From the NCBI RefSeq assembly GCF_011752015.1, contig NZ_JAAIKA010000001.1:124001-188000 (forward strand): a stretch of DNA of 64,000 bases, written 5' to 3'. Source of the stretch: Canibacter zhoujuaniae (GTDB taxonomy: Bacteria > Actinomycetota > Actinomycetes > Actinomycetales > Microbacteriaceae). Below, piece after piece: positions 17,627 to 20,041 of the stretch (position 1 is its first letter; every line of letters begins with the position of its first letter). The notes beneath the pieces were generated by a model. That model was not told the origin of the DNA. It searched no databases and saw only the letters and a list, made by a program, of their open reading frames with translations. A program made the position numbers and the translations under genes.

Positions 17627-17992
17627 AGCTACCTCCTGCGACAGCGTTGTGTTTAAAGGTCGAACCGGTAGAGCAAAGGGTGGCTACTGTCTCGCAATCT
17701 GAGATGCGTGACGAACCGTATATTCGGTTGGTTTTACCGCGTAGCGATAAGGGCGATACGGGGGAGACGCACCTCGCCTCTCCTTTGATCTGCCGGTAGC
17801 GTTGCCTCATAATTCTACACCGTCTATGACTGCAACACTGGCGCAGGCTGGTGAGTATTGTATTCAGCTTGGGTTGCGTCTGCCCCGCAGGGTAATCGGG
17901 GGTCGGCGTCGGTGTCGGGTCGCCCTGTTCAGCCGGTGCCGGTTGATGATTTGGAGCGTGTTGTGGCGGTTTATGAGTTGAAAGGAGGAAAA
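17627..17992. other. Gene-free stretch upstream of fasR and first island peptide
   Basis: No convincing gene is seen. It must hold the fasR promoter (minus strand). A small palindrome AACCG-TATATT-CGGTT at 17714-17729 could be an operator but has only 5-bp arms. From about 17850 an open frame on the plus strand runs without a good start into the 36-aa peptide below; its sequence Val-Asp-Asp-Leu-Glu-Arg-Val-Val-Ala-Val-Tyr-Glu-Leu could be the tail of a lost gene. Confidence 0.4.
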
Positions 17993-18103
17993 ATGGCTAA
18001 AAAAGACAAAAAGAAAGACCAGAGCGCGCTAATCTCAGCAGTCGGAACATTGCTCATCGGACTAGCCGCCCTGGTCTCGGCCATCGGGGATCTAATTAGA
18101 TAA
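17993..18103 (+). CDS. 36-aa membrane micropeptide with a basic N-terminus
   Basis: Met-Ala followed by seven Lys among nine charged or polar residues, then about 24 hydrophobic residues forming one likely membrane helix, ending Asp-Leu-Ile-Arg. An exceptionally strong AAAGGAGG site lies 5 nt before the ATG, which argues that this short frame is translated. The same frame extends upstream without a better start. It is the first gene of a small island; a hairpin follows its stop and a second membrane peptide comes next. I do not recognise the family. A bacteriocin-like, holin-like or type I toxin-like peptide are all possible by shape only. Confidence 0.6.
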   Translation: MAKKDKKKDQSALISAVGTLLIGLAALVSAIGDLIR

Positions 18104-18110
18104 CCGATAC

Positions 18111-18137
18111 GTGTGGGAGGGGGAAACCCTCCCACAC
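18111..18137 (+). other. Hairpin after the first island micropeptide
   Basis: GTGTGGGAGGG at 18111-18121 pairs with CCCTCCCACAC at 18127-18137 around a 5-nt loop. The 11-bp GC-rich stem starts 7 nt after the stop codon, but no T run follows. It may be a terminator of low efficiency or an mRNA-stability element. Confidence 0.65.
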
Positions 18138-18170
18138 ACCTAAAACTATACTCTAGCCATTAAAACAAAA

Positions 18171-18305
18171 ATGAAAACACTATCACCAATTCTCGCAGCT
18201 TTTGCAGGCATTCTTGCGTTAACTGGCTCTGAGCCGGGAATCGTGGCTGCTTGGTGTTTTATCGCCGCTTGTTTAGGTATCTCAGTAAAAGACAAGGAAA
18301 AATAA
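18171..18305 (+). CDS. 44-aa membrane micropeptide with two hydrophobic segments
   Basis: Begins Met-Lys-Thr-Leu-Ser-Pro, has hydrophobic segments at about residues 6-18 and 23-38 separated by a Gly-Ser-Glu-Pro-Gly turn, and ends in a charged Lys-Asp-Lys-Glu-Lys tail. The two-segment hairpin shape resembles small phage membrane proteins, but no family is recognised. There is no clear ribosome-binding site; a TATACT box lies at 18147-18152. The stop codon is 2 nt before the ATG of the following HTH gene, so the two are probably co-expressed. Real coding status is likely but not certain. Confidence 0.5.
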   Translation: MKTLSPILAAFAGILALTGSEPGIVAAWCFIAACLGISVKDKEK

Positions 18306-18307
18306 TA

Positions 18308-18508
18308 ATGATCCGCTATCTATCAACAACCGATATAGCAGACCGCCTAGGCATTACAGCTGGCGCTATACGACATTACAAGCTACCTGAACCTGACGCA
18401 ATGATAGGGCGCGTGCGCGGGTGGCTACCCGAAACAGTGGACGACTGGAACGAGAATCGGCCGGGGCGCGGCAACTGGCGCAACCAACAAGCCGAGACAC
18501 AAGAATAA
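18308..18508 (+). CDS. Small MerR/AlpA-type helix-turn-helix protein
   Basis: 66 aa from the ATG at 18308, 2 nt after the stop of the preceding peptide. It has an N-terminal HTH (Ser-Thr-Thr-Asp-Ile-Ala-Asp-Arg-Leu-Gly-Ile-Thr-Ala-Gly-Ala-Ile-Arg) and a wing with Arg-Gly-Trp-Leu-Pro-Glu-Thr-Val-Asp-Asp-Trp, the arrangement of excisionase/AlpA-like DNA-binding proteins of phages and integrative elements. Such proteins usually control excision or element transcription. No integrase is found nearby. Its codon choices (many Cta, Aca, Caa) differ from the flanking housekeeping genes, which fits acquired DNA. Confidence 0.7.
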   Translation: MIRYLSTTDIADRLGITAGAIRHYKLPEPDAMIGRVRGWLPETVDDWNENRPGRGNWRNQQAETQE

Positions 18509-18821
18509 TTTTCTCACTGCCTATGTTAGGTAGTGTGCCCGTCTAGGGTTGGCTGTAGGGCCTTCTCTAGGCGGGGCTGTCTACTTTGATTTGTTGTTTT
18601 GCGGCGAGGGTTTCTAGTTGTTCTAGGTGCATTGTGTATCCCCGGTTGGTGGTGTGGTTTTTTCGGGGTTTAGTTTATTTGGGGGGTGTATGGGTTTATA
18701 ACGGGGTTAAGTTTTGGGTGGGGTTGCTTGTTTTTAGTTAAAACTTAATTCCGTGCGCAAAATGGCGGGGGTTATTCTGCGTGTTGGTCCCATTGTTGGG
18801 TGAGGGCGTGGTCGTGGTCTG
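18509..18821. other. G+T-rich stretch without a convincing gene
   Basis: About 310 bp whose plus strand is strikingly G+T-rich and minus strand A+C-rich, as in the minus-strand HTH gene beside it. On the minus strand a 21-codon frame at 18567-18632 (Met-His-Leu-Glu-Gln-Leu-Glu-Thr...) is preceded by GGGGATACACA and could be a leader peptide, but it is too short to support as a gene. No RNA gene or repeat is recognised. Confidence 0.4.
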
Positions 18822-19148
18822 TCATTGTTTGTGCGGCGAGGGCGTATTCTTCGCCGGTTTGGTTTCGTTAGCTTCGTGTGCTGTAGTTGTTTCCGCGCCT
18901 TTGGGCGTGGTGTTTTGGGCGTCCCGCAATACTTGCCAGTCTTTTAGGCCGAGGGGTGCGCAAAGTGCGGGCAGTTCGTCAATCATTAGGGGCCGGTTTT
19001 TGCGCATCACGTGAGAAAGTCTGGTTAGGGAGATGCCGGAAGCGGCGGCTAGTGCCCTTAGTGACATGTCTTTATCGTGTTTTGTGTCGTTGATTATGTC
19101 TATTAGTGCTGAGTTGAGGTGTCCCACCCCTAGCTGTTGTTTGCCCAT
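18822..19148 (-). CDS. XRE/repressor-like helix-turn-helix protein
   Basis: 108 aa from the ATG at 19148; a 12-residue longer start is possible. Residues about 15-65 form a Cro/CI-type HTH (Ser-Leu-Arg-Ala-Leu-Ala-Ala-Ala-Ser-Gly-Ile-Ser-Leu-Thr-Arg-Leu-Ser-His). The C-terminal 35 residues are low-complexity Thr/Lys/Pro. It is divergent from the 81-aa HTH gene at 19264, the classical repressor/anti-repressor layout of a phage switch. It is probably the regulator of the island. Another reading frame near the 3' end also looks protein-like, so the true C-terminus could differ if a base were missing. Confidence 0.65.
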   Translation of the reverse strand: MGKQQLGVGHLNSALIDIINDTKHDKDMSLRALAAASGISLTRLSHVMRKNRPLMIDELPALCAPLGLKDWQVLRDAQNTTPKGAETTTAHEANETKPAKNTPSPHKQ

Positions 19149-19263
19149 AATCAAAGCGTACCTATAATGCAACACGCCGAGCAAGTTTAGAGAATTTGCG
19201 TTTCGTTTAAAGAACGGTAGGGTTATATTAAATGATCCGCTATAGGAACACTAGGGAGAATAA
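19149..19263. promoter_or_regulatory. Divergent control region between two HTH genes
   Basis: 115 bp between the minus-strand repressor-like gene and the plus-strand HTH gene. TATAAT at 19163-19168 and TTATATTAAAT at 19222-19232 are -10-like elements, and GGGAG lies 5 nt before the plus-strand ATG. A 13-nt sequence AATGATCCGCTAT at 19231-19243 recurs at 18306-18318. Operator activity is inferred only from the divergent layout. Confidence 0.45.
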
Positions 19264-19509
19264 ATGAGTTTAGCTGCAGAGGTTAAAGTATTGGCGCTCC
19301 GCTCAGGGAAAACGCTTAAAGAAGCTGCAGAACATATGGGTATAGCGCGAGTAACGCTTTATAAAAAGCTTCGTGGGCTGTCGCCGCTCACGGTAGACGA
19401 CTTGCAGGAGCTCGGGGCATTTTTTGAGACTGAGCCGCTGGAACTTTACCGGCACAGACTAGAAGAAAAGAAAACGCCCGCAGCGTTAGCCACGGGCGAC
19501 GGCAACTAG
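19264..19509 (+). CDS. Small Cro/XRE-like helix-turn-helix protein
   Basis: 81 aa with an HTH at about residues 14-50 (Thr-Leu-Lys-Glu-Ala-Ala-Glu-His-Met-Gly-Ile-Ala-Arg-Val-Thr-Leu-Tyr-Lys-Lys-Leu), then a short helical tail (Leu-Glu-Leu-Tyr-Arg-His) and a charged end. It starts at an ATG with a good GGGAG site. Divergent to the repressor-like gene and followed within 15 bp by another HTH gene, it looks like the Cro-side regulator of a phage-type switch. The target sites are unknown. Confidence 0.7.
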   Translation: MSLAAEVKVLALRSGKTLKEAAEHMGIARVTLYKKLRGLSPLTVDDLQELGAFFETEPLELYRHRLEEKKTPAALATGDGN

Positions 19510-19524
19510 AAAGAAAGAAAAAAG

Positions 19525-19749
19525 ATGCCAAACAACATCATACCGTCCACACCAAACGAAACAACAAACAAAGGTGCCGGACTAGTTATCAAACTACCAA
19601 AAGAATTACCGACAATGCTAACCCCTAAACAAGTAGCGCAAGAGACAGGCATATCAGTCTCAGTGCTCTACAGATGGCGGGAAACATCACGCAATGGCCG
19701 GCTTAAAGGTATTCCTTTTATTCAGACTGGCTACGGTGGGAGAAGTTAG
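19525..19749 (+). CDS. Excisionase-like (HTH_17/AlpA) protein, probably cut short
   Basis: 74 aa. Residues about 31-60 have the excisionase-type HTH: Leu-Thr-Pro-Lys-Gln-Val-Ala-Gln-Glu-Thr-Gly-Ile-Ser-Val-Ser-Val-Leu-Tyr-Arg-Trp. The protein stops right after Gly-Tyr-Gly-Gly-Arg-Ser, where related proteins normally continue with the basic wing and a final helix of about 15 residues, so the C-terminus appears truncated. AAAGAAAG precedes the ATG. It lies 15 bp after the Cro-like gene and was probably co-transcribed with it. Confidence 0.6.
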   Translation: MPNNIIPSTPNETTNKGAGLVIKLPKELPTMLTPKQVAQETGISVSVLYRWRETSRNGRLKGIPFIQTGYGGRS

Positions 19750-19762
19750 AAAACTTGGGGAA

Positions 19763-19921
19763 GTGTTTAACATCCCGGCAGTAGTCTCCGCAGCACGGTT
19801 AGTAAGCGAACTAGACATGTCGGTAGCGACATTACGTAAATATTTAGATTTACCCGTTATACGCGTAGGGGCTAAGCCCCGTTATAGGCGCGTTCTGATG
19901 TGGTCGCATGCTTGCGAGTAA
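19763..19921 (+). pseudogene. Second excisionase-like HTH frame with probable frameshift
   Basis: 52-residue frame from a GTG at 19763, preceded by GGGGAA. It reads as a winged HTH (Ser-Ala-Ala-Arg-Leu-Val-Ser-Glu-Leu-Asp-Met-Ser-Val-Ala-Thr-Leu-Arg-Lys-Tyr) up to Arg-Tyr-Arg-Arg-Val near 19893. After that the current frame gives Leu-Met-Trp-Ser-His-Ala-Cys-Glu-stop, which is not family-like. Shifting the frame there gives Asp-Val-Val-Ala-Cys-Leu-Arg, the expected ending helix. A small indel in GTTCTGATG is therefore suspected, either a mutation or a sequencing error. Confidence 0.5.
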
Positions 19922-19954
19922 AACCATAAAACGGCTAAAGCAATGCAACAAAAA

Positions 19955-20000
19955 TGTGAAAATCCCCGGAAAAGCTATTGATTTTCCGGGGATTTTCACA
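19955..20000 (-). terminator. Long perfect inverted repeat, probable bidirectional terminator
   Basis: TGTGAAAATCCCCGGAAAA at 19955-19973 is repeated inverted at 19982-20000, a perfect 19-bp stem with an 8-nt loop. On the minus strand it lies downstream of aceE and is followed by CATTTTT, so it can terminate aceE; on the plus strand it closes the island genes. It could also be a repeat end of the island. Confidence 0.75.
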
Positions 20001-20019
20001 CACTTCCAAAGGCTTAGTG

Positions 20020-20041
20020 CCTAAACCCTAAAGGGTTTAGG
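20020..20041. repeat. 22-bp near-perfect palindrome
   Basis: CCTAAACCCT at 20020-20029 and AGGGTTTAGG at 20032-20041 are perfectly complementary around two bases. It lies between the aceE stop and the larger inverted repeat. It may be an additional 3' hairpin of aceE mRNA or a protein-binding site. Confidence 0.6.

Follow-up and report, generated by a model that had tools for sequence, protein, structure and literature searches.

A phage-derived insert between aceE and fasR of Canibacter zhoujuaniae holds a copy of a recurrent phage cassette of two membrane micropeptides, an RNA hairpin and a DNA-binding protein

What separates aceE from fasR in Canibacter zhoujuaniae, and where does it come from? 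The initial annotation, made from the letters alone, described an accessory island of about 2.2 kb interrupting this neighbourhood and offered two readings of it, a phage-satellite remnant or a small autonomous cassette not yet described. We address the question in the window, that is, the whole stretch of 64,000 nucleotides that was analysed (G000:C1:124001-188000 of a 1.47 Mb genome); positions below count from its first letter. The insert appears to have been acquired and to derive from a phage, and it holds a copy of a cassette that recurs in actinobacterial phages and prophages: two membrane micropeptides (MP1 and MP2), an RNA hairpin between them and a helix-turn-helix (HTH) protein of the phrog_597 family (HTH597). 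Tentatively, we read the island as the lysogeny region of a decayed prophage, with the cassette as an accessory that acts at the membrane in superinfection exclusion or abortive infection.

Both aceE and fasR lie on the minus strand, so their natural order is aceE then fasR. From the aceE stop to the fasR start the window has 2,475 bp, versus 60 bp in G003, 105 bp in G001 and 136 bp in G004 (Leucobacter sp. OH1287), among four congeners compared; in the fourth, G002 (G002:C25), fasR is absent and aceE is directly followed by fabD. Comparing this interval in related genomes, the check that had been proposed with the island, thus finds the site empty in congeners, and the interruption is real. 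The A-rich codons that had been noticed are also there: the frequency of A at third positions is 0.34 in the pooled island genes against a mean of 0.193 in flanking genes (sd 0.036, maximum 0.27), a count in which the MP1 frame was shifted by one base, affecting only 37 of 479 codons. The gene types that had been named (two membrane micropeptides, a MerR/AlpA-like HTH, a divergent repressor/Cro pair and two excisionase-like HTH frames) were all recovered close to where they had been placed, and the main open reading frames (ORFs) of the island are all open. Three observations support the view that the insert is acquired and phage-derived: congeners lack it at this site, its codon usage is foreign, and phage relatives exist for most of its genes.

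The cassette occupies the fasR side of the insert, as follows.

17858..17992, plus strand: coding-like leader, open in frame with MP1 (..RPVQPVPVDDLERVVAVYELKGGK) and ending in a strong ribosome site, GAAAGGAGGA (17980-17989)
17993..18103, plus strand: MP1, a 36-amino-acid single-pass membrane micropeptide, MAKKDKKKDQSALISAVGTLLIGLAALVSAIGDLIR; G004 has a syntenic MP1 (MARKNKSRNQAASELLNALAKLVAAVAALVAAIGALFR)
18111..18137, plus strand: RNA hairpin with a perfect 11-bp stem, a 5-nt loop and no U-tract; its position and covarying stem are conserved across cassettes
18171..18305, plus strand: MP2, a 44-amino-acid membrane micropeptide with about two membrane segments
18308..18508, plus strand: HTH597, a 66-amino-acid MerR/AlpA/excisionase-type winged HTH with the motif YKLPEPDAMIG..RGWLPET, matching phrog_597

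MP1, the hairpin, MP2 and the HTH gene are intact in the window copy and the ribosome site is retained. Their order is the one that defines the cassette, namely MP1 with a strong Shine-Dalgarno (SD) sequence, a hairpin about 15-25 nt past its stop, MP2 and HTH597; as read from its letters, the island holds a complete copy. The hairpin in the MP1-MP2 gap has a z of -6.0. HTH597 matches phrog_597 with an E of 6.8e-26 over residues 1-64, covering both HTH and wing, and is modelled as a MerR/excisionase-type winged helix (mean predicted local distance difference test score 79). Its Foldseek neighbours include NmlR, RacA, RdfS and Pukovnik Xis, with MerR-like and Xis-like proteins scoring similarly weakly (best E 0.044). 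Upstream, the leader occupies the place of the TATAGT-type promoter seen in other cassettes; it has no relatives above chance, and the leader-MP1 junction is probably a recombination joint. The best PADLOC hit, mad1 (E 1e-4 to 3e-4), covered the HTH helix alone, in two different proteins, and was rejected as a system match.

How widely the cassette recurs was determined by aligning relatives of HTH597 and searching genomes and viral contigs, which gave about 120 sites, 79 of them distinct and 67 with full flanks. The HTH motif was the criterion for drawing all cassette sets, which are de-duplicated but not phylogenetically independent. A hydrophobic, MP2-like ORF of 38-75 amino acids ends just before the HTH gene at 49 of the 67 phrog_597 loci (control 65/1,105, 5.9%). 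At 38 of these 49 an MP1-like hydrophobic ORF of 22-60 amino acids lies 30-115 nt farther upstream (control 37/958, 3.9%), and MP1-like ORFs with a basic C-terminal tail number 30 versus 8 in the control. The MP1-MP2 gap contains a GC-rich hairpin in all 43 of 43 cassettes, with z below -2 in 40 of them (mean -4.4), and the loop starts 14-28 nt past the MP1 stop. When 25 hairpins were aligned in a 7-nt loop register, all 12 pairs varied on both sides and 93% of cells paired; alignment rows were centred on predicted hairpins, which biases the paired percentage towards structure, and the compensatory changes are the stronger evidence. The stem covariation score was 0.835, compared with 0.239 +/- 0.026 for shuffles (0/500 shuffles) and at most 0.21 for slid registers.

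Signals for expression accompany the cassette. GGAGG lies within 20 nt upstream of MP1 in 41 of 43 cassettes (control 18/664), a figure inflated by choosing the MP1 start partly by its SD sequence; TATA[AG]T upstream of MP1, common rather than universal, is found in 29 of 43 (control 5/660). In close pairs the ratio of nonsynonymous to synonymous change (pN/pS) is near 0.4 for both MP1 and MP2, indicating purifying selection; the micropeptides are therefore real proteins, and together with the covarying hairpin this selection marks the cassette as functional. We found no published description of a phage cassette of small membrane proteins and an HTH protein among open-licence papers. The suggestion of an undescribed autonomous cassette holds for a sub-part, MP1-hairpin-MP2-HTH: it is present in many phages, brings a promoter and ribosome site of its own, and was not found in that literature, PADLOC, NCBIfam or Pfam.

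The cassette is found in Gordonia phages, viral contigs and prophages of Bifidobacterium, Actinotignum, Microbacteriaceae and others. In the integrase-bearing Gordonia phages Crater (gp38-gp37-gp36), Cynthia (gp32-gp31-gp30) and Polly (gp34-gp33-gp32), it lies on the strand opposite to the tail genes, between these and the integrase/immunity genes; in Arthrobacter phage Andrew and Gordonia phage DinoDaryn a small gene abuts the HTH gene. A prophage of Actinotignum urinale DSM 15805 (L031 / L082) has four divergent tandem MP2-HTH597 copies, three with MP1, next to a repressor; the array ends near a uracil-permease-like host gene. G004 retains an integrase in a window-like layout adjoining tRNA-Pro: integrase, MP1, MP2, HTH597, ImmA/IrrE, repressor (minus strand) and Cro (plus strand), names given by eye from sequence. 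Stand-alone copies adjoin a tRNA in G003 and, lacking the peptides, in Mobiluncus, where locus L079 has a repressor relative and HTH597 near a tRNA and no nearby integrase; others stand beside genes that by eye resemble toxin-antitoxin genes (L080, HicA/HicB-like, and L176).

Other small genes also border HTH597 or the cassette. In G003, tandem small acidic ORFs resembling paralogous immunity proteins directly adjoin HTH597 (L026 14302-16306 and L175 4529-5149), and similar ORFs lie near it in Mobiluncus (L079 4368-4893). In Glutamicibacter and related contigs (L092, L041, L042) the cassette is flanked by small lipoprotein genes (..LALAGCSAGNQ..), which may be a further accessory partner.

The rest of the insert is made up of small regulatory genes, up to hairpins beside aceE.

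18509..18821, no strand assigned: stretch rich in G and T (AT skew -0.50, GC skew +0.35) that holds no convincing gene, the 3' region of the convergent cassette and repressor
18822..19148, minus strand: phage-type repressor of 108 amino acids (alternative TTG start at 19184), with relatives in Actinotignum urinale and Mobiluncus curtisii
19149..19263, no strand assigned: divergent repressor/Cro control region, from sequence
19264..19509, plus strand: Cro-like HTH of 81 amino acids (phrog_4583, E 5.5e-7)
19525..19749, plus strand: excisionase-like HTH whose C-terminus looks short (phrog_66, E 4.9e-5; phrog_1553, E 6.1e-5)
19763..19921, plus strand: second, weak short HTH-like frame (proposed GTG start, in-frame ATG at 19694), with no family match
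19955..20041, minus strand: perfect 19-bp terminator hairpin and palindrome, likely outside the acquired segment

The repressor matches phrog_4583 weakly (E 0.0015). It is homologous to the A. urinale prophage repressor (32% identity over 95 amino acids, pairwise E 4e-18) and related to a M. curtisii gene (E 1.6e-8), both of which adjoin HTH597; no close protein relatives were found in viral contigs, and a class-wide search gave weak generic HTH matches only. The Cro-like protein is likewise homologous to that of the A. urinale prophage (30% identity, E 1e-7). The pair is thus like phrog_4583 repressor/Cro switches in being divergent small HTH genes homologous to the Actinotignum pair, and unlike the usual switches in being detached from integrase and early operon. 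On the minus strand at about 18740-18870, a second frame past the repressor C-terminus reads GEEYALAAQTMTDHDHALTQQWDQHAE, like the EAETGEKYDE tail of the Actinotignum repressor, and the gene may be frameshifted here. A 13-nt perfect direct repeat, AATGATCCGCTAT, lies at 18307-18319, over the HTH597 start codon, and at 19231-19243 in the repressor/Cro control region (by a rough estimate, about 0.06 expected by chance); it is a possible candidate for a shared operator.

Strong hairpins had been listed among the island's features, and they exist at 18111-18137, at 19955-20000 and as a palindrome at 20020-20041; the last two are probably the native aceE terminator. The perfect 19-bp inverted repeat at 19955-20000 lies near aceE and is followed by a T-run on the minus strand. 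Because congeners also have a terminator-like hairpin 3' of aceE and a hairpin similar to the 19-bp one follows a tRNA elsewhere in this genome, we take hairpin and palindrome as native, and therefore place the acquired part at about 17.86-19.93 kb. An integrase about 480 bp from that tRNA-associated hairpin gave rise to the idea that the 19-bp repeat is an attachment (att) site, which was rejected given its terminator-like form and the similar hairpin behind the tRNA. In the same genome, a 280-amino-acid tyrosine integrase adjoining a tRNA (G000:C1:520795-521745; L024, L180, L181) probably marks another integrated element.

As had been reported, the aceE-fasR interval has no integrase, relaxase, replication or capsid genes. 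The reading as a remnant fits best because the homologous island parts in G004, A. urinale and an Actinomycetaceae metagenome-assembled genome have prophage-like surroundings, with integrase, ImmA/IrrE or early genes next to them; the window, in turn, shows a foreign insert absent from the same site in relatives, with homologues of its lysogeny-region genes in phages and prophages. Neither an integrase nor att repeats at the ends were found in the interval, which fits a decayed remnant and argues against an intact element. Of the satellite remnant, the phage-derived remnant stands and the satellite falls, as there are no integrase, packaging or hijacking genes and the homologues are phage genes of the ordinary sort. 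We rejected a satellite, or a new mobile element, for want of an integrase, ends or a second copy. Plasmids yielded no convincing close DNA relatives.

The island would then be what remains of the lysogeny end of a temperate actinobacterial phage, lying between the terminator of aceE and the promoter of fasR. In the prophage state the cassette may serve as an accessory operon working at the membrane, where both micropeptides would sit and either keep other phages from infecting or abort the infection. HTH597 may tune the operon, the hairpin just past the MP1 stop may set the ratio of MP1 to MP2 plus HTH by stabilising or trimming the message, and the retained repressor would confer added immunity against related phages. 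We infer that the cassette, an operon on the opposite strand with its own promoter, membrane products and divergent tandem copies near a repressor, comes closest to the accessory (moron) functions of prophages, for example RexAB-like exclusion. Lambda RexAB, Sbash gp30-gp31 and CarolAnn gp43-gp44 each combine a four-pass membrane protein with a large RexA-like sensor of about 370 amino acids (PMC6426596, PMC6426606). Like the cassette, these are prophage-carried accessory genes that include a membrane protein and are expressed in lysogeny or encoded near the repressor (PMC6426596, PMC6426606); unlike them, the cassette consists of two peptides of 30-60 amino acids and a DNA-binding protein, so that the likeness is one of arrangement, with no homology implied.

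Several observations weigh against this reading. No att sites or direct repeats bounding the island were found, and MP1 and MP2 matched no Pfam, NCBIfam or PADLOC family. The usual TATAGT/TATAAT promoter upstream of MP1 is absent from the window copy, which must therefore be expressed from another promoter or be silent; a promoter-like match at 17785-17813 could drive it, such matches being as numerous as expected by chance. HTH597 also occurs without MP1 and MP2 in Bclasvirinae phages, behind another HTH or hypothetical gene, and in Ogopogo, and therefore has a role apart from the peptides. Finally, the Cynthia annotation calls it 'excise', and it has an excisionase/MerR-like fold. These last points speak for a different function, in which HTH597 would act mainly as a recombination directionality factor or early regulator, the micropeptides being leader peptides within its control region; RdfS and Pukovnik Xis are among its Foldseek neighbours along with many MerR proteins, hmmsearch gives a weak match to RdfS (E 0.43), and an integrase lies within a few kb in several phages. 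Yet the Bclasvirinae phages carry HTH597 in regions showing no integrase, the cassette, with a promoter of its own, often lies far from the integrase, and amino-acid-level purifying selection on MP1 and MP2 would be unexpected for mere leaders, so we consider excision control quite unlikely.

Type I prophage membrane toxins of the TxpA/BsrG/Fst kind are short single-pass peptides with a stable hairpin behind the stop codon. MP1 shares this form, including the hairpin directly behind its stop, one membrane segment, an often basic tail and a strong translation signal, and could be a holin-like toxin checked by MP2 and/or HTH597 in an addiction module that persists by post-segregational killing; the stand-alone copies beside tRNAs and toxin-antitoxin-like genes would suit it. 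Unlike those toxins, MP1 is followed by MP2 and an HTH gene, an unusual order for toxin, antitoxin and regulator, and an Rfam search gave sub-threshold chance matches only. An antisense RNA candidate was neither searched for nor turned up, the peptides have no family match and four-copy divergent arrays are equally compatible with diversification of defence; an addiction module seems unlikely. That the island is instead a domesticated host regulatory element or an independent mini-mobile element would agree with its open main ORFs, its lack of phage structural genes and the Mobiluncus locus near a tRNA. It has no ends, recombinase or second copy in this genome, and its relatives sit in phage- or prophage-like settings or near tRNAs, which makes this very unlikely. 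Most improbable is a lysis role, with MP1 and MP2 as holins or antiholins that close the late region: small hydrophobic proteins do occur near tail and lysis genes, but the cassette lies on the strand opposite to the late genes, has its own promoter and stands apart from annotated lysins and holins.

Beyond this locus, MP1-hairpin-MP2-HTH597 may represent a widespread, hitherto undescribed class of accessory operon carried by actinobacterial prophages, a proposal we hold with more doubt than the reading of the island as a prophage remnant. In it, a hairpin conserved in structure and variable in sequence would set the peptide ratio together with an auto-regulating HTH protein, divergent arrays would reach up to four copies, and the outcome would be membrane-based phage exclusion or plasmid-like addiction. 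HTH597 shares with Gordonia phage Polly gp32, Crater gp36 and Arthrobacter phage Andrew gp28 the motif PEPDA.IG..RGWLPET and a place beside lysogeny genes; phrog_597 is annotated as a lone DNA-binding protein, and the linked MP1, hairpin and MP2 as merely hypothetical or membrane. As a prophage leftover, the island itself is unremarkable; what deserves following is the recurrent cassette, a compact operon whose members annotation records separately as 'hypothetical', 'membrane' and 'HTH' genes. Since Crater, Cynthia and Polly, laboratory phages of Gordonia terrae, carry copies, what two membrane peptides of 30-60 amino acids do for a prophage is directly testable.

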